The translations under genes were made by a program, and so were the position numbers. DNA of 64,000 bases from Actinacidiphila bryophytorum (lineage in GTDB: Bacteria; Actinomycetota; Actinomycetes; Streptomycetales; Streptomycetaceae). Location: assembly GCF_016916835.1 (NCBI RefSeq), contig NZ_JAFFIX010000026.1, forward strand, positions 1 to 64,000. Reading direction: 5' to 3'. The notes below the pieces were generated by a model. The model made no database searches. It saw nothing but the letters and a program-made list of their open reading frames with translations, and was not told the origin of the DNA. Of the stretch, positions 12,046 to 19,507 are shown in pieces (positions within the stretch are counted from its first letter, which is position 1; every line of letters starts with the position of its first letter).

Positions 12046-13422
12046 ATGGCGGCGGAAGGACGGCTGCTGGCCGACCGCTACCGGCTGCTGCGGCGGCTCG
12101 GCTCCGGCGGCAGCAGCAACGTCCACGAGGCGGAGGACCTGGCCCTCGACCGACGCGTCGCCGTCAAGCTGCTGGCCGGCGGCTCCGACCCCGCCGACGC
12201 CGTGGCAGCCGAGCGCTTCCGGCGCGAGGCGGCGACGCTGGCCCGGATCAGCTCCCCTTACGTGGTCGCCGTCCTCGACGCGGGCGCGGACGCCGGCACC
12301 CCCTTCGTGGTGATGGAACTGCTCGACGGCGTCGAACTCGACGCCCTGGTCGGCACCCACGGCGCGCTGCCGCCCGAGGTGGCCGAGGCGGTCGCGGCCA
12401 GCGTCTGCGCGGGACTTGCCGCCGTCCACGAGGCGGGCGTGGTCCACCGCGACGTGAAACCGTCCAACGTCATGATCACCCGGGCGGGCCGGGTCGTGCT
12501 GCAGGACTTCGGGCTGGCCCGCGCCGTCGACAACTCCCCCGTCACAGAACTGGGCGAGGTCGTCGGCACCCCGCGCTACCTGCCGCCCGAGACGCTGCGC
12601 GGCGCCTCGCCCCGGCCCGCCGCCGACCTCTACGGGCTCGGCACCTGCCTCTACACCATGCTCAGCGGGCGGCACCCCTTCGCCGGGGAGGAGGAGATCG
12701 CCCCGATCATCCTCCAGGTCGTCGACACCGGCCTGCCCCGGCTGACCGGCACACCGGGCGTACCGCCGCGGCTGGCCGCACTGGCCGACGCGCTCACCGA
12801 GCGGGACGCCGACCTGCGCCCGGCGAGCGCCGTCGAGGTGCTGGGCCGGCTGGCGACCACCGTCTCGGCCGAGCCGGTACGCCGGCTGCGCTCGCTGGTG
12901 GCCGACTGCATACGCGACCAGGCGCTCGCCACCGTCCACCGGCCGGCAGCGGAAGCCGCGGCGGACCCGGAGGGCGGCACCCTCACCATCCCGCGCCCCG
13001 CGCCGGGCGGCGGCAGGGAGCGCCCGGAGAACATCGCGGGCCTGCACACCACAGCCGTGCCCACCCAGGTGTCCTGGCCCACGACGTCCGCCGACGGCCT
13101 GCCCGGCGGCCACCCGGTGGGGCTGAGCAGCAGCACCCAGCAGATGGTGATGAGCGGCATGACCGAGGCCAAGGCCACCTCGCGGCTGCGCGAGGCGGTC
13201 ACCCTGGTGCACCGTGGCGACCTCCAGGAGGCGGTGCGCATCCTCGGCACCCTGGCCAGGGTCTGCCCCATCTCCCTGGGGACGGCCCACCCCACGACAC
13301 TGGCCGCGCAGTTCTGGCAGGCGATGTGCCTGTCCCGGGAGGGAGCGGGCGGGGAGGCCGTCGTGCTGTTCTCCGCGGTGAGCGAGCGCTGCGAGGCGGA
13401 GAGGAACAGCGGGCGTGGATGA
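12046..13422 (+). CDS. Ser/Thr protein kinase of an EACC1-caspase operon
   Basis: 458 residues. Residues about 10-275 form a Hanks-type kinase: GSGGSSNVHEAE glycine loop, VAVK with Lys41, HRDVKPSN with Asp136, DFG at 154-156, and GTPRYLPPE in the activation segment. All catalytic residues look intact. There is no transmembrane helix, unlike PknB-type sensors. The tail (about 370-458) is helical and TPR-like (EAVTLVHRGDLQEAVRILGTL). The stop overlaps the next gene by 8 bp. Context suggests it is the regulator or activator of the caspase module, probably cytoplasmic. Confidence 0.85.
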   Translation: MAAEGRLLADRYRLLRRLGSGGSSNVHEAEDLALDRRVAVKLLAGGSDPADAVAAERFRREAATLARISSPYVVAVLDAGADAGTPFVVMELLDGVELDALVGTHGALPPEVAEAVAASVCAGLAAVHEAGVVHRDVKPSNVMITRAGRVVLQDFGLARAVDNSPVTELGEVVGTPRYLPPETLRGASPRPAADLYGLGTCLYTMLSGRHPFAGEEEIAPIILQVVDTGLPRLTGTPGVPPRLAALADALTERDADLRPASAVEVLGRLATTVSAEPVRRLRSLVADCIRDQALATVHRPAAEAAADPEGGTLTIPRPAPGGGRERPENIAGLHTTAVPTQVSWPTTSADGLPGGHPVGLSSSTQQMVMSGMTEAKATSRLREAVTLVHRGDLQEAVRILGTLARVCPISLGTAHPTTLAAQFWQAMCLSREGAGGEAVVLFSAVSERCEAERNSGRG

Positions 13423-14023
13423 GACGGGCACGGCCGGCGGCGCCCTTGCCGCCGCCGGTGAGGTGGAGGTGGTCCTCACCCCCGCGGACCCGGCGGCCCC
13501 GGGGACGGCGGAGGACGACCTGCGGTCGCTGCTGCGCTGGCTGCGTGCGGACGAGACGCTGACGGGCCTGTCCGCCGGCCGGATACGGGACGGCGAGCCC
13601 CCGCAGCCGGGCGCCATGGGCCTGGCCTTCGACGTCCTGCAGCTGACGATCGGCTCCGGGCTGTCCGCGGGTGCGCTGGCCGTCTCCGTCGCGCAGTGGC
13701 GGGACGCGCGGCGCCGCCCGCCGGGCATCACGCTGCGGCGGGGGCGGACGACCGTCGAGATCCCCGCGACCGGGCCGGTCGACGTGGCCGCGCTGGCCCG
13801 AGCGCTGCAGGTGCTCGGGGCGCAGCCGGCCGACGTGCCGCTGCCGGCCGCGGCGCCGGCTGCGGCCGCACCTGCGGCGGCACCTGTGCGGGCCGCCGCT
13901 GCCGTACCGCCGATGCCCGCCCGGCCGCCCCTGCCCGCGCAGGAGCCGGCGCCCGTACCGGAACCGGCGCGGGCAGCGAACGTACGCACCGGGGAAGCGG
14001 CGGGTGATGGAACGCCTTCCTGA
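13415..14023 (+). CDS. EACC1 (effector-associated constant component 1) protein
   Basis: 202 residues from GTG 13415. The core (about 17-125) has the EACC1 pattern: DLRSLLRWLRADETL, then PPQPGAMGLAFDVLQ, a hydrophobic helix TIGSGLSAGALAVSVAQW, and RRPPGITLRRG with VEIPATGPVDV. The remaining ~75 residues are Ala/Pro-rich and disordered. EACC1 is a small protein found next to effector peptidases and NTPases in computationally defined actinobacterial conflict systems. It overlaps the kinase gene by 8 bp and the caspase gene by 17 bp. Its molecular action is not known; the hydrophobic helix hints at membrane contact or oligomerisation. Confidence 0.8.
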   Translation: MDETGTAGGALAAAGEVEVVLTPADPAAPGTAEDDLRSLLRWLRADETLTGLSAGRIRDGEPPQPGAMGLAFDVLQLTIGSGLSAGALAVSVAQWRDARRRPPGITLRRGRTTVEIPATGPVDVAALARALQVLGAQPADVPLPAAAPAAAAPAAAPVRAAAAVPPMPARPPLPAQEPAPVPEPARAANVRTGEAAGDGTPS

Positions 14024-15152
14024 TCCGATGGGATCGCGGGCCGTCCTCATCGGCACCGCGGCCTACCGCCAGCTGGAGCAGCTGCCCGCCGTCACCGCCA
14101 ACCTGCGGGACCTGGCGCAGGCGCTGGGCGACCCCATGCTGTGGGGCCTGCCCGACCGGCACTGCGTCGTGGTGACCGATCCGCAGGACTCCTCCGCGCT
14201 GCTCGACCCCGTACAGAGTGCGGGCGAGGACGCCGAGGACACGCTGCTCGTCTACTACGCGGGGCACGGCCTGCGGGACGCCGACTCGTCCGACCTCTAC
14301 CTCGCGCTGACCGGGTCGCGCGCCAACACCGGCTACACGGCGGTGGGTTACCAGCACCTGCGGGCCGTGGTCCGGCAGTCCCGCGCCCGGCGCAAGATCA
14401 TCGTGCTGGACTGCTGCTTCAGCGGGCGGGCCGCGAAGGCGCTGACCGGCGGCATCATCGACGAGGCCGCGGTCGACGGCGCCTACGTGCTGGCCGCCTC
14501 GCCGCGGGACCGGGTGGCGCTGGCCCCCGACGGCGAGATGCACACCGCCTTCACCGGTGAGCTGCTGGACATCCTGCGGGCCGGCATCGCCGACGGCCCC
14601 GAGCTGATCGACCTGGAGACGATCTACCAGGAGCTGGACGCGCGGCTGCGGGCCAAGAACCGGCCCCGGCCGCAGCGGCACCAGGAGAACAACACCGGGC
14701 GGCTGCCGCTGGTCCGCAACCGTGCCGCGACCGCGGAGCCGCTGCCTGCCGGTCCCGTGCTGCGCGAGGAGGTGCGCGCCGCGATGCTCGGCGCGGGGCT
14801 GTCGCTGGCCCGCATGCTGCGCTCGGCCGGCCGCAGCAGGGACGCGCTGCCGGTGCTCCGCCTCGTCCTCCAGGAGGGCACCCCCGAGCCGGGCGCGCAC
14901 AACTTCGCGGTGCAGCTCGAACTGGCCGAGCTGCTGGCCGACACCGGGCAGAGCCGGGAGGCAGTCGAGGTGCTGGAGCAGGCGTTCCTGCAGACCCGCA
15001 AGTCCTTCGGCCCCGAGGCGGTGCTGGTCTGCCGCCGGCTGGCCGACCTGCTCCAGGAGGCCGGCAACCACATCCAGGCCTGCGAGGTGCTCAAGCACGC
15101 CCTCGACCTGATGGAGGTCGGCTCGGCGGTGGCAGCCGAGAGCCCGGAGTAG
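14007..15152 (+). CDS. Caspase-like peptidase with TPR tail (EACC1-associated type)
   Basis: About 381 residues. Residues about 10-240 form a C14 caspase/metacaspase domain: SRAVLIGTAAYRQLEQLPAV, catalytic His87 in YYAGHG, and catalytic Cys137 in LDCCFSG. Residues about 260-375 hold TPR helices (RAAMLGAGLSLARMLRSAG; TGQSREAVEVLEQAF). A start at ATG 14007 overlaps the EACC1 gene by 17 bp; ATG 14028, just after the EACC1 stop, is an alternative. Last gene of the kinase-EACC1-caspase operon. In such operons the peptidase is the likely toxic effector, cutting host proteins after a trigger. That role is inferred from family and context. Confidence 0.87.
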   Translation: MERLPDPMGSRAVLIGTAAYRQLEQLPAVTANLRDLAQALGDPMLWGLPDRHCVVVTDPQDSSALLDPVQSAGEDAEDTLLVYYAGHGLRDADSSDLYLALTGSRANTGYTAVGYQHLRAVVRQSRARRKIIVLDCCFSGRAAKALTGGIIDEAAVDGAYVLAASPRDRVALAPDGEMHTAFTGELLDILRAGIADGPELIDLETIYQELDARLRAKNRPRPQRHQENNTGRLPLVRNRAATAEPLPAGPVLREEVRAAMLGAGLSLARMLRSAGRSRDALPVLRLVLQEGTPEPGAHNFAVQLELAELLADTGQSREAVEVLEQAFLQTRKSFGPEAVLVCRRLADLLQEAGNHIQACEVLKHALDLMEVGSAVAAESPE

Positions 15153-15186: not shown

Positions 15187-15636
15187 TCACCAGGTCCTGC
15201 CCGCCTGCTCGCCGATCGTGCGGTTGATCCGGTTGAAGAAGTTGGTCGTCGCGATCTCCAGGGTGATCGCGGACAGCTGCTCGGGCGTGAAGTGCGCGGC
15301 GGCCTCCTCCCATATCGCGTCGGTCACGCCGTCCGCGCCGTCCTGGAGGCGGGTGGCGGCCTCGGTCAGCGCGAGGGCGGCCCGCTCCTGGTCGGTGTAG
15401 AAGGGCGTGTCGCGCCACGCGGCCACGTGGTGCACCCGCTCGTCGCTCTCCCCGTGCTTCTTCGCCGCGGTGACGGCGGAGAAGACGCAGGGGCTGCAGC
15501 CGTTGATCTGGCTGGCCCGCAGATGGACCAGCGAGAGCAGCCCCGGTGCCACTCCCCCGGCGCCGATCGCCTTGTGCAGGTGCTGGATCGCGGTGATCAG
15601 GTCGGGGTGGGGGGTTCCCTTGGTACGTACGGGCAT
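15187..15636 (-). CDS. AhpD-like carboxymuconolactone decarboxylase family protein
   Basis: 149 residues from ATG 15636 (start MPVRTKGTPHPDLITAI), preceded by GAGGAGCAG. A helical CMD/AhpD domain carries the redox pair in INGCSPCVFS followed by a His (KKHGESDERVHH), the usual alkylhydroperoxidase-like site. Divergent from a SigJ/ECF41-type sigma gene. ECF41 sigma factors are characteristically linked to such COE genes (carboxymuconolactone decarboxylase, oxidoreductase or epimerase), and both genes here share a mirrored promoter. The physiological substrate is unknown. Confidence 0.85.
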   Translation of the reverse strand: MPVRTKGTPHPDLITAIQHLHKAIGAGGVAPGLLSLVHLRASQINGCSPCVFSAVTAAKKHGESDERVHHVAAWRDTPFYTDQERAALALTEAATRLQDGADGVTDAIWEEAAAHFTPEQLSAITLEIATTNFFNRINRTIGEQAGRTW

Positions 15637-15655
15637 CGGCTCTGCTCCTCGGGTC

Positions 15656-15716
15656 GTTACCTGCGGCGCTCCTGCGCCGTCATCCCCCATGACGGGGCGG
15701 AACGCAGGAAGGTAAC
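15656..15716. promoter_or_regulatory. Mirror-symmetric pair of ECF promoters
   Basis: On the plus strand GTTACC (15656-15661), 16 nt, CGTC (15678-15681). On the minus strand the identical GTTACC (15716-15711), 16 nt, CGTC (15694-15691). The -35 elements are outermost and the -10 elements innermost, so the two promoters overlap face to face and read outward to the sigma gene and the AhpD-like gene. CGTC is the -10 known for ECF41/SigJ-type promoters. The inner dyad CCGTCAT-N5-ATGACGG (15677-15695) is part of this symmetry. Confidence 0.7.
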
Positions 15717-15719
15717 TCC

Positions 15720-16640
15720 ATGGCCGACGACAGCAGCCCGCAGGACCCGGCGTCCGGGGACCGGGTGGCCGACGCGTTCGAGTCGCAGCGCGACCGGCTG
15801 CGCTCGGTCGCCTACCGCATGCTCGGTTCGCACGCCGACGCCGAGGACGTGGTGCAGGAGGCCTGGCTGCGGCTGTCCCGGCAGGACCCGGCGGCCATCG
15901 GCAACCTCGCCGGCTGGCTGACCACGGTGGTCGGCAGGATCAGCCTCGACGTGCTGCGCTCGCGCAGGAGCCGCCCCGACGTGTCCTACGACGTCCGGCT
16001 GCCCGAGCTGGCCGAGACCCCGGGCGGCGGTACGGAGCCCGCGGAGGACGCGGCGCTCGCCGAGTCGGTGGGGTTGGCCCTGCTCGTGGTGCTGGACACG
16101 CTCGGGCCGAGCGAGCGGCTGGCGTTCGTGCTGCACGACCTTTTCGCGGTGCCCTTCGACGAGGTCGGGCCGATCCTCGGGAAGTCCACCGCCGCCGCCA
16201 AGATGCTCGCCAGCCGCGCCCGCAGGAAGGTGCAGGAGAACCGGCCGCCCGCGGGCGCGGGGCGGGAGCAGCGCGAGGTCGTCACCGCCTTCCTTGCCGC
16301 GGCCCGGCACGGCGACTTCGAGGGGCTGCTGCGGCTGCTGGACCCCGACGTGCGGCTGACGGTGGACTCCCCCGGCGGCGTGGCGGTGACGCTGGGCGCG
16401 ACAGCGGTGGCCCGCGGCGCGAAGCTGTCCGCGGGCGCGGCAGGCGGCGGCCGGGAGGTGCTGGTCGACGGCCGGCCCGGGGTCGTCTCCTGGCGCGCCG
16501 ACGGCACACCGCTCGCGGTGCTGGCCTTCACCGTGGCCGCGGGGCGGATCACCGAGATGACGGTGGTGACGAACCCGCAGAGCCTGGAGCGGCTGGCACT
16601 GCTCGACCCGCCGCGCCCCGAGCCCGGCGCGGACGCCTGA
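15720..16640 (+). CDS. ECF sigma factor with SnoaL-like C-terminal domain (SigJ/ECF41 type)
   Basis: 306 residues. Sigma region 2 spans about 15-80 (RLRSVAYRMLGSHADAEDVVQEAW). Region 4 spans about 110-170 (LGPSERLAFVLHDLFAVPFDEVGPILG). A C-terminal SnoaL-like domain covers about 185-300, ending TVVTNPQSLERL, a variant of the NPDKL motif that marks this group. The fused domain replaces a separate anti-sigma factor. ATG 15720 follows AGGAAGG. It is divergent from an AhpD-like gene and is likely autoregulated from the mirrored promoter. Confidence 0.87.
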   Translation: MADDSSPQDPASGDRVADAFESQRDRLRSVAYRMLGSHADAEDVVQEAWLRLSRQDPAAIGNLAGWLTTVVGRISLDVLRSRRSRPDVSYDVRLPELAETPGGGTEPAEDAALAESVGLALLVVLDTLGPSERLAFVLHDLFAVPFDEVGPILGKSTAAAKMLASRARRKVQENRPPAGAGREQREVVTAFLAAARHGDFEGLLRLLDPDVRLTVDSPGGVAVTLGATAVARGAKLSAGAAGGGREVLVDGRPGVVSWRADGTPLAVLAFTVAAGRITEMTVVTNPQSLERLALLDPPRPEPGADA

Positions 16641-16754: not shown

Positions 16755-17888
16755 TCAGCCGCAGGGCCGGGCGCAGGGCGAGAGGGGGACGCCGTTGCTG
16801 CGCAGCACCTCGCGGACGTCCAGGATCAGCGGGAAGACCTCATGGTTGCGGTCCTCGCCCTGCTCGTCCCAGGCGCGCTGCTCGGCCTCGACGGCCATCC
16901 GGTCCTCGGCGAACACCCGCTCGGTGAAGCGCCGGATGAGCGGCCACGCCAGATGGACGGCGCCCGGCACCCGCGGCTTCTCGATCATCAGCAGGCCGTA
17001 GACGTGGCAGGTCCGCTGCTCGGCGTCCTCCGGCACGTAGGCGACCCACAGCGAGAAGACCGGGTGGTCGGACTTCTCCGGGACCAGCGTGAGCGTCTGG
17101 TAGGGGTACTCGGTGCGGATCGTCATCACGTCGGCGCTGTCGGAGCCGCCGATGCCCTCGGCCGCGAGCAGGCCCGCGCCGCGGTTGCGCCGGCCGCCGC
17201 CGTGCGTGAACAGGTAGCGGGCCTCGACCGACCGGGCGTCCGCCTCGTAGCCGAGCAGCTTCGGCTGCAGCCGGCCGACCACACCCCGGTGCAGGAACTG
17301 GTGGTTCATGTCGAGCAGGTTCTCGTGCATGAAGGAGTAGTGGCAGCGCACCGTCCGGGAGTACGTCATGGTGCGGTGCCGCGCCGAGCCGTACTCCGGG
17401 AGTACGGGCAGCGCGGTTGCCTCCGCCTTCGCCGGGTCGCCGGGGAAGACGAACACCAGGCCGTACGCCTCCCTGACCGGGAAGGCGCGTACTCCGCGCG
17501 GCGGACGGCCCACCCCCTTGGGGAGGTAGGGGATCTGCGAGATCCGGCCGTCGCCGCGGTAGGCCCAGGCGTGGTAGCAGCAGCGCAGGGCGTCGCCTTC
17601 GACCACTCCCATGCTCAGCGGGACCTGGCGGTGCGCGCACCGGTCCTCCAGCGCGTGGACGGCGCCGCTCGCACCCCGGTAGAGCGCCATGCGCTCGCCG
17701 CCGAAGACCGCGGCCACCGGCTTTCCCCGCACCTGCGACGACAGCGCGACCGGATACCAGTGGTCCGGGTGAGCGCCGACCCGGCGCAGGTCGGGGAGGC
17801 CGCCGGGGCGCGGCTGGGCCGTCGGGGCGGACCCGGGGTCCGGCGCCGCGATACCGGCAGGTCCGCCCGGGGACGTGGTCTCGGTCAT
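16755..17888 (-). CDS. Rieske [2Fe-2S] oxygenase, alpha-subunit type
   Basis: About 377 residues from ATG 17888, preceded by GAGGGAG (a GTG at 17906 is possible). A Rieske domain carries CAHRQ and, 17 residues on, CCYHAW, the C-x-H / C-x2-H cluster ligands. The C-terminal catalytic domain has ENLLDMNHQFLH with the mononuclear iron ligands. The layout resembles Rieske monooxygenases of the vanillate demethylase/pheophorbide a oxygenase type. A ferredoxin reductase partner is not nearby. The substrate is unknown. Confidence 0.83.
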   Translation of the reverse strand: MTETTSPGGPAGIAAPDPGSAPTAQPRPGGLPDLRRVGAHPDHWYPVALSSQVRGKPVAAVFGGERMALYRGASGAVHALEDRCAHRQVPLSMGVVEGDALRCCYHAWAYRGDGRISQIPYLPKGVGRPPRGVRAFPVREAYGLVFVFPGDPAKAEATALPVLPEYGSARHRTMTYSRTVRCHYSFMHENLLDMNHQFLHRGVVGRLQPKLLGYEADARSVEARYLFTHGGGRRNRGAGLLAAEGIGGSDSADVMTIRTEYPYQTLTLVPEKSDHPVFSLWVAYVPEDAEQRTCHVYGLLMIEKPRVPGAVHLAWPLIRRFTERVFAEDRMAVEAEQRAWDEQGEDRNHEVFPLILDVREVLRSNGVPLSPCARPCG

Positions 17889-18002
17889 CGGTGCTCCCTC
17901 GGTCACGCCCCCATCGTGCCGGGACCCGGTCGCCCCGGCCCGCCCGGCGGGTCCGCACGGGTGACGGGGGGGCGGGTCCGTTCCCGCCGGATCGCGATCC
18001 GG

Positions 18003-19094
18003 TCAGCGGCCGCGCCAGGGCGCCCAGCCGTCGGCGCCCGCCAGGTACGCCTCGGGGGTGGCCGACCGGGCCTCCTGCCGGGTCAGTTGGGGGCGGGCGG
18101 CCGGGTCGGTCACGTGTGCGCCGGGGCCGCTGTTGGCGTACTCCCGGAAGCGCATGCTCTGCCAGGGGAAGTCGGCGGACATGTTTGCGTACGGCTGCGC
18201 CGCGTCGATTCCCGGGCCGAGCCAGGTGTCGCGCACGGTCAGCATCGGCACCGCGGTGGTGTCGGAGCTGGGCACCCAGGGGCGGGCCAGTTTGTACGCG
18301 GCGTCCGGGGCGCCGCTGGTGACGCGGCATCCGGTCGCGAGGAAGCCGTGCGGGTCGGGGGCGGTGGTGCTCGGCGCGAAGACGAAGCCGTAGGGCGGCG
18401 CGGCCAGGTCCGTGCGGTCCAGGGTGTGGAGGCGGCAGTGGTCGAAGACGGCGGTGGCGCGGCCGAAGACGAAGTCGACGTCGCCCTCGGCGTAGCAGTC
18501 CCGGTAGTACTGCCGGGCGAAGACGTCCACGGCGAGGGTGTCGGCGTACAGCGTGTCCTGGTGGCCGAGGAAGCGGCAGTGGTGGAAGGCGGAGCGGTCG
18601 CCCTGCACCTTGATCGCGACCGCCTGGGTGCCGGTGACACCGGGGTGGTCGGCGCGCAGCCAGTCGTTGGCGAAGGTGACGTGGCGGGCGGTGAAGTCCG
18701 CGGCCTGGGTCGTGACGGTGGCGGAGCCCGAGGTGCCGTAGGTGCCGCCGGTGGGTTTGGGGGTGCCGTTGGCGCGGTCGAGGACGATGACGGCGTCGCA
18801 CGGGTCGCCCGTCGCACCGAGCAGGGTCAGGCCCTGGGCCGCCGCGGGGACGACGACGGCCTCCCGGTAGGTGCCGGGCGCGAGCACGATCGTCGCGCCC
18901 GGGCCTGGCACGGCGTCCACGGCGTCCTGCACGGAGGTGAAGTCGCCCCGCCCGTCGGGTGACACGTAAAGAGCACGGCTTCCGAGACGCCCCGCACTGG
19001 CGCGGGCCCGGGGCGCGCCGGCGGCCCCCAGCCCCAGGGCGGCGGCCGCACCGGCGGCGCCTGCGGTGAGAACGTCTCTGCGCGTGGGGGCCAT
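18003..19094 (-). CDS. Secreted pectinesterase (CE8)
   Basis: 363 residues from ATG 19094, preceded by CTCCAGGAG. The N terminus has a twin-arginine signal (MAPTRRDVLTAGAAGAAA). The mature part is a pectin methylesterase beta-helix: APGTYREAVVVP, AVAIKVQGDRSAFHHC, FLGHQDTLY, YYRDCYAEGDVDFVFG with the catalytic Asp, and KLARPW. It would remove methyl esters from homogalacturonan, exposing substrate for the pectate lyase encoded divergently. Confidence 0.9.
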   Translation of the reverse strand: MAPTRRDVLTAGAAGAAAALGLGAAGAPRARASAGRLGSRALYVSPDGRGDFTSVQDAVDAVPGPGATIVLAPGTYREAVVVPAAAQGLTLLGATGDPCDAVIVLDRANGTPKPTGGTYGTSGSATVTTQAADFTARHVTFANDWLRADHPGVTGTQAVAIKVQGDRSAFHHCRFLGHQDTLYADTLAVDVFARQYYRDCYAEGDVDFVFGRATAVFDHCRLHTLDRTDLAAPPYGFVFAPSTTAPDPHGFLATGCRVTSGAPDAAYKLARPWVPSSDTTAVPMLTVRDTWLGPGIDAAQPYANMSADFPWQSMRFREYANSGPGAHVTDPAARPQLTRQEARSATPEAYLAGADGWAPWRGR

Positions 19095-19507
19095 GGGTGC
19101 ACTCCTGGAGGGGGTCGTGGTGCGCCGGTGGCGCGGCTCCGATCGTTCCGCAGTATGAACAGGATCCAACTCCTTGCACAACCGTCGTGCGCCCACCACT
19201 CCGGAAAGTAAGCCTTTACCATCCTCGTGAGACGAACCTCCAGGGTCGCTCACGACGATCTGTCGATGCGCTTCACCACCGGCCGCCGCCGTACCGCCAC
19301 CGGCCTGTGCGGGTGTCATGCGCCCTTTCCCCTACCGATGAATGGGGATTTGGCCGACCATCCACGAACCTTGTGAAAACTGTTGCCCGCGTGGCGGGCG
19401 TGTCCTACGGTTCTTGGCACCTCGGCGCTTCGACAGCGCCTGGCGATGGCTCGTTGGCAAGCGCTTGCTACACGACTGACTCATCCCCCCACAAAGGACG
19501 ACCCGCC
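19095..19507. other. Divergent intergenic region of two pectin-degrading genes
   Basis: About 413 bp with no gene. It contains a dyad TCGTGAG-N17-CTCACGA (19225-19255), an AT-richer patch near 19205-19222 likely to hold the pectinesterase promoter, and the GCAAGCGCTTGC palindrome before the pectate lyase. Confidence 0.5.
19457..19468 (+). promoter_or_regulatory. LacI-type operator palindrome
   Basis: The 12-bp perfect palindrome GCAAGCGCTTGC lies 40-51 bp upstream of the pectate lyase ATG. A central CG flanked by A/T-containing arms is typical of LacI-family sites that control sugar genes. A related palindrome (TCGAAGCGCTTCGA) precedes the GH12 gene at 39397. Confidence 0.55.

Follow-up and report, generated by a model that had tools for sequence, protein, structure and literature searches.

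The present study analyzes a divergent gene pair and the short region between its members in a window of 64,000 nucleotides from Actinacidiphila bryophytorum. Domain and structure matches identify 15720–16640 (+) as the gene of an ECF41/SigJ-like stress sigma factor of 306 amino acids. Its sigma2 and sigma4 regions both exceeded the Pfam cut-offs (Sigma70_r2, 3.4e-13; Sigma70_r4_2, 2.8e-06), while a SnoaL-like C-terminal extension matched SnoaL_2 (E 8e-05) with 23.6 bits, under the 27-bit cut-off, and the NCBIfam SigJ model gave 244 bits, under its cut-off of 271. The best solved relative was SigJ of M. tuberculosis (PDB 5xe7, E 5e-43), with a match spanning sigma2, sigma4 and the SnoaL domain, and the closest named relative found was Actinacidiphila cocklensis, whose sigma factor is 84% identical. 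The source genome contained 14 matches to the sigma profile. On the other strand, 15187–15636 (−) encodes a CMD/AhpD-like protein, an antioxidant-type enzyme, of 149 amino acids with a CxxC motif (PF02627, E 3e-15); positioned divergently from the sigma gene, it is the type of neighbor (CMD, oxidoreductase or epimerase) by which ECF41 loci are recognized. The start at 15636, with which orthologue starts agree, was preferred over an in-frame ATG at 15690 (−) that lies inside the promoter core described below. No viral relatives of the CMD protein were confirmed. Adjoining the sigma locus, 13671–15152 (+) is an open frame for a caspase-like domain (Peptidase_C14) with TPR repeats after it; its listed GTG start may be too far upstream. 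Upstream of this gene, 12046–13422 (+) resembles a serine/threonine protein kinase on visual reading. The opposite strand downstream of the sigma gene carries a Rieske/VanA_C oxygenase gene (16755–17906, −) and a pectinesterase gene (18003–19319, −).

The CMD and sigma genes are separated by 83 bp. Direct reading of 15656–15716 confirmed what the initial annotation had described, GTTACC-N16-CGTC on both strands with the -10 boxes face to face and 9 bp apart (15682–15690), a pair far beyond chance. For the sigma gene, the predicted promoter comprises a -35 box at 15656–15661 (+), kept as GTTACC or GTTACG in loci whose sigma factor is of the KM type (residues 161–162, below), and the -10 box CGTC at 15678–15681 (+), at the conserved spacing of 16 bp. 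For the CMD gene, sequence and relatives point to a -35 GTTACC at 15711–15716 (−), overlapping the Shine-Dalgarno of the sigma gene (AGGAAGG, 15706–15712, +), and a -10 CGTC 16 nt further on at 15691–15694 (−); the CMD gene has its own Shine-Dalgarno, GAGGAG, at 15645–15650 (−). From GGTAAC to the sigma start codon there are usually 3 nt in relatives. Both -10 boxes fall within a shared core, CGTCAT-N5-ATGACG (15678–15694), which is the predicted melting region for either orientation of polymerase and in which almost every relative has a gap of 8 or 9 bp. Transcription is predicted to start near 15689 (+) and 15683 (−), in both cases between the -10 boxes. The mirror symmetry concerns boxes and spacings only and does not extend to the sequences of the two 16-bp spacers. 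Published ECF41 promoters have a CGTC -10 and a spacer of 16 ± 1 bp, and stand ahead of an enzyme gene and often of the sigma gene too (PMC3426412). Both features were found here on both strands, but the ECF41 -35 TGTCACA was absent from the element, with GTTACC in its place, tracking the KM state of the recognition helix.

A single copy of the motif is no more than chance would give. The lone pattern GTTACC-N16-CGTC occurred 8 times in the 8.05-Mb genome versus 4 for a reversed control, and at up to one mismatch the window held 4 single sites versus 3.1 expected. The interlocked pair, in contrast, is not chance: the full pattern was found in 10 of 150 family genomes and a looser one in 66 of 258, with the control at 0 in each case. 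In a set of 80 relatives chosen by protein similarity plus ten loci chosen by pattern, the mirrored element occurred at 66 of the 67 related loci where a CMD gene lies divergently and at none of the 23 lacking one, so that the symmetry, whose presence upstream of orthologues the initial annotation had proposed as a check, is indeed conserved there. A DNA search restricted to the class of the window genome, with 5–14 bp allowed in the center and one spacer fixed at 16, returned symmetric matches of 60–61 bp, and 43 of the 44 fetched adjoin an ECF41/SigJ-like sigma gene. Two matches, L120 (class level, no adjoining sigma gene) and L254 (family level), were set aside as chance or doubtful matches. 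Even though the parsing permitted spacers of 14–18 and gaps of 4–14 bp, spacings were 16/8–9/16 in 105 of 110 actinobacterial loci, a count of loci related to one another and not of independent trials. The layout was kept across several sigma clades and with different partner genes, namely CMD, DoxX_2, NmrA/epimerase, Flavodoxin_2, MMPL, DUF1059 (below cut-off), MFS and MarR, a list that omits some loci (L125, L127, L131, L138, L146–L148, L169). CGTC/GACG and the 16-bp spacings persisted across loci, while the inner AT and the center varied, as did the length of the CMD leader among relatives. Among 80 SigJ-like genes sampled by protein without bias, the interlocked layout was seen at only about 6, the others having back-to-back promoters (a few) or none recognized; the layout is therefore recurrent but not general. 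At a second sigma locus in the source genome (L169/L194, contig C20 near 85363–85420), a left GTCACA-N16-CGTC is followed 8 bp on by GACG and the right half is degenerate. In one 76%-complete genome (L017) the sigma frame appears shifted and the mirrored element is intact.

Close relatives of the sigma factor also occur in tandem operons, and there GTTACC-N16-CGTC was found one-sided and once, before the upstream gene, at 22 of 22 loci where 0.006 would be expected per locus. It lies 440–595 nt upstream of the sigma gene, all 22 sigma factors are KM, and the upstream gene belonged to the glyoxalase family in the one locus tested. The element is thus best read as the promoter of the sigma factor itself, used in both directions at the window locus. 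The tandem sites (e.g. L064, L079 and L101, about 500 nt upstream of sigma) retain CGTC-AT and, in most cases, a single GACG 8–9 bp after CGTC, with no opposite -35. This GACG may be a remnant of an ancestral mirrored element or may act in initial transcription, and its retention by one-sided promoters means that some of the central symmetry may have a role for the forward promoter only.

The suggestion of the initial annotation that the -35 departs from the ECF41 sequence by co-variation with this sigma factor was borne out. The residue pair identified by covariation is K161-M162 in the sigma4 recognition helix, encoded at 16200–16205 (+). In the first set of loci, all 74 tree rows with GTTAC-type -35 boxes on both sides had M at residue 162, and all 26 with GTCAC-type boxes on both sides had Q or K there. 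For both residues together, KM occurred with GTTACC or GTTACG, KK with GTCACC or, on one side, GTCACT, and RQ or RK with GTCACA. There were exceptions: five KM loci combined a GTTAC with a GTCAC box, and the last base differed on one side at a few RQ loci. The three-class rule was derived from this set, and 52 further loci, held out and picked by DNA pattern, agreed with it. In a formulation by side, made after the held-out data had been seen, the third base of the sigma-side -35 was T at 11/11 KM loci (four of these had GTCACC on the partner side), and the partner-side -35 ended in A at 19/19 RQ loci and was GTCACC at 22/22 KK loci. In a sigma tree built by a quick method and containing some long branches, most GTTACC loci formed one strongly supported clade, with GTCACA and GTCACC loci elsewhere. 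Because loci cluster by clade, the number of independent origins is small; two loci, L154 and L162, seem to be KM cases in their own right. A visual alignment anchored on the R-x-R motif matches residues 161 and 162 to K170 and T171 of SigW, which contact positions -31 and -34. A study on ECF promoter specificity was reportedly made by Todor et al. in 2020. The three-class rule allows the -35 of an ECF41-type sigma factor to be predicted from sequence and points to orthogonal pairs of sigma factor and promoter for actinobacteria.

The spacer of the sigma promoter contains an inverted repeat, GGCGC-TCCT-GCGCC (15665–15678, −), which if transcribed towards the CMD gene as predicted would form a hairpin near the 5′ end of the partner mRNA, in its leader. 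Stems of at least 4 bp were counted in the sigma-side spacers of 64 of 98 distinct loci versus 14 expected from shuffles, and in 0 of 98 partner-side spacers versus 2 expected. At loci with other partners, paired positions had changed on both sides, at several pairs.

Other explanations could account for parts of these patterns. One is ordinary compaction, two independent ECF41 promoters squeezed together with an overlap of no function, which is consistent with an intergenic region of only 83 bp, with the divergent ECF41 loci already known to have motifs ahead of both genes, and with the existence of back-to-back layouts. Compaction would leave unexplained, however, why the gap keeps to 8 or 9 bp when 4–14 bp was permitted, across several sigma clades and partners and with CMD leaders of varying length, and we consider it rather unlikely. 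The near-perfect inverted symmetry, including CGTCAT-N5-ATGACG, might instead mark the operator of a dimeric regulator, with the likeness to promoters secondary, but a half-element conserved alone before operons with the same kind of sigma factor counts against an operator palindrome, as do outer boxes that track sigma4 residues and the persistence of CGTC/GACG and of the 16-bp spacings around a variable inner AT and center. This possibility is very improbable and was rejected because the half-element alone serves tandem operons. Alternatively, the fixed gap could reflect initially transcribed sequence or leaderless micro-ORFs, given that ATG or GTG is common at the predicted +1 (ATG on both sides at 58 of 98 loci) and that one-sided promoters retain AT after CGTC and the lone GACG. 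Against micro-ORFs, AT after CGTC is found in one-sided promoters too, some loci are without any start codon, and the frame, to a TAA inside GGTAAC, is dictated by the spacing, for which reason they were judged weak; as an account of the gap, this explanation is improbable overall.

The element is very probably a bidirectional, autoregulated ECF41-type promoter with mutually exclusive orientations, co-inducing its two genes at a fixed ratio rather than acting as a two-state switch, and with a -35 that is GTTACC because the recognition helix has K161-M162. Layout, conservation, one-sided use in tandem operons and covariation with the sigma factor are observed, and we infer start sites, activity, exclusion in the cell, control of the ratio and the effect on feedback. 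Polymerase carrying this sigma factor would bind in two opposed orientations, melting one common core of about 17 bp, with the sigma transcript produced from one and the CMD/AhpD transcript from the other. Because polymerases at both promoters would occupy one stretch of DNA and open one common core, they should exclude each other, and each productive binding would thus give one transcript or the other. The initial annotation had held that one sigma factor drives its own and the AhpD-like gene, which is most likely, and that two polymerases could not initiate together, which the geometry supports. Enzyme and sigma factor would be co-induced in a ratio fixed by the strengths of the two promoters, and the enzyme promoter would draw initiations away from the positive feedback of the sigma factor.

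The same annotation had proposed that the arrangement could act as a built-in competitive switch. Under such a reading, exclusion would force the cell into either high sigma or high CMD expression. Exclusion does follow from the geometry, and at bidirectional promoters of E. coli strong activation one way represses the other way, but competition there mattered only at high activity, being negligible at basal activity, and noise was reduced (Warman et al. 2026, PMC12825309). At the window locus both promoters would be served by the same holoenzyme, so competition would partition initiation instead of selecting a state. The response with one holoenzyme on both sides is hyperbolic, and a minimal one-sigma model had a single stable state with or without exclusion, which lowered the steady level of sigma. 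A switch would need an extra asymmetric regulator, and none was seen. It is therefore quite unlikely, and a fixed-ratio splitter that brakes autoregulation is the likelier interpretation. We propose more tentatively that such elements may constitute a widespread, distinct class of bidirectional promoter, with face-to-face ECF promoters around one melting site and a selected gap of 8–9 bp, the sigma factor apportioning each initiation either to its own gene or to its target, and the target-leader hairpin being a further part. This would be a natural, often repeated case in which the positive feedback of an alternative sigma factor competes on DNA with its own target gene, so that the effect of polymerase exclusion is directly testable.

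Face-to-face overlapping divergent promoters occur in argECBH and bioABFCD under an operator-binding repressor. The window locus resembles these systems in its opposed, overlapping promoters and divergent genes and differs in that no repressor-type regulator is indicated. It shares with the ECF41 promoters, given as TGTCACA-N16-CGTC by Wecke et al. (2012, PMC3426412), a putative SnoaL-type C-terminal extension, the neighboring CMD gene, the CGTC -10, the 16-bp spacer and, as in many divergent loci, the motif ahead of both genes; the -35 GTTACC is different, and promoters interlocked face to face at a fixed gap of 8–9 bp are not described in the portion of that work considered here. SigJ of M. 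tuberculosis (PDB 5xe7) has RQ in the recognition helix, where the window sigma factor has KM. ECF41 promoters ahead of both divergent genes and bidirectional promoters are thus already known, while the interlocked geometry and the -35 residue rule were not found in open-access full-text literature, an absence that, with coverage confined to such text, is weak evidence of novelty. The bidirectional promoters of E. coli (PMC12825309) are similar in their near-symmetric DNA, two mutually exclusive polymerase orientations and divergent RNAs, the first of which is seen and the other two predicted at the window locus. In E. coli the two directions share one -10, with starts beside or within it, most often 18 bp and in other cases 10 or 23 bp apart, whereas the window element has two separate -10 boxes 9 bp apart, starts predicted between them, and a sigma factor that would serve its own gene.
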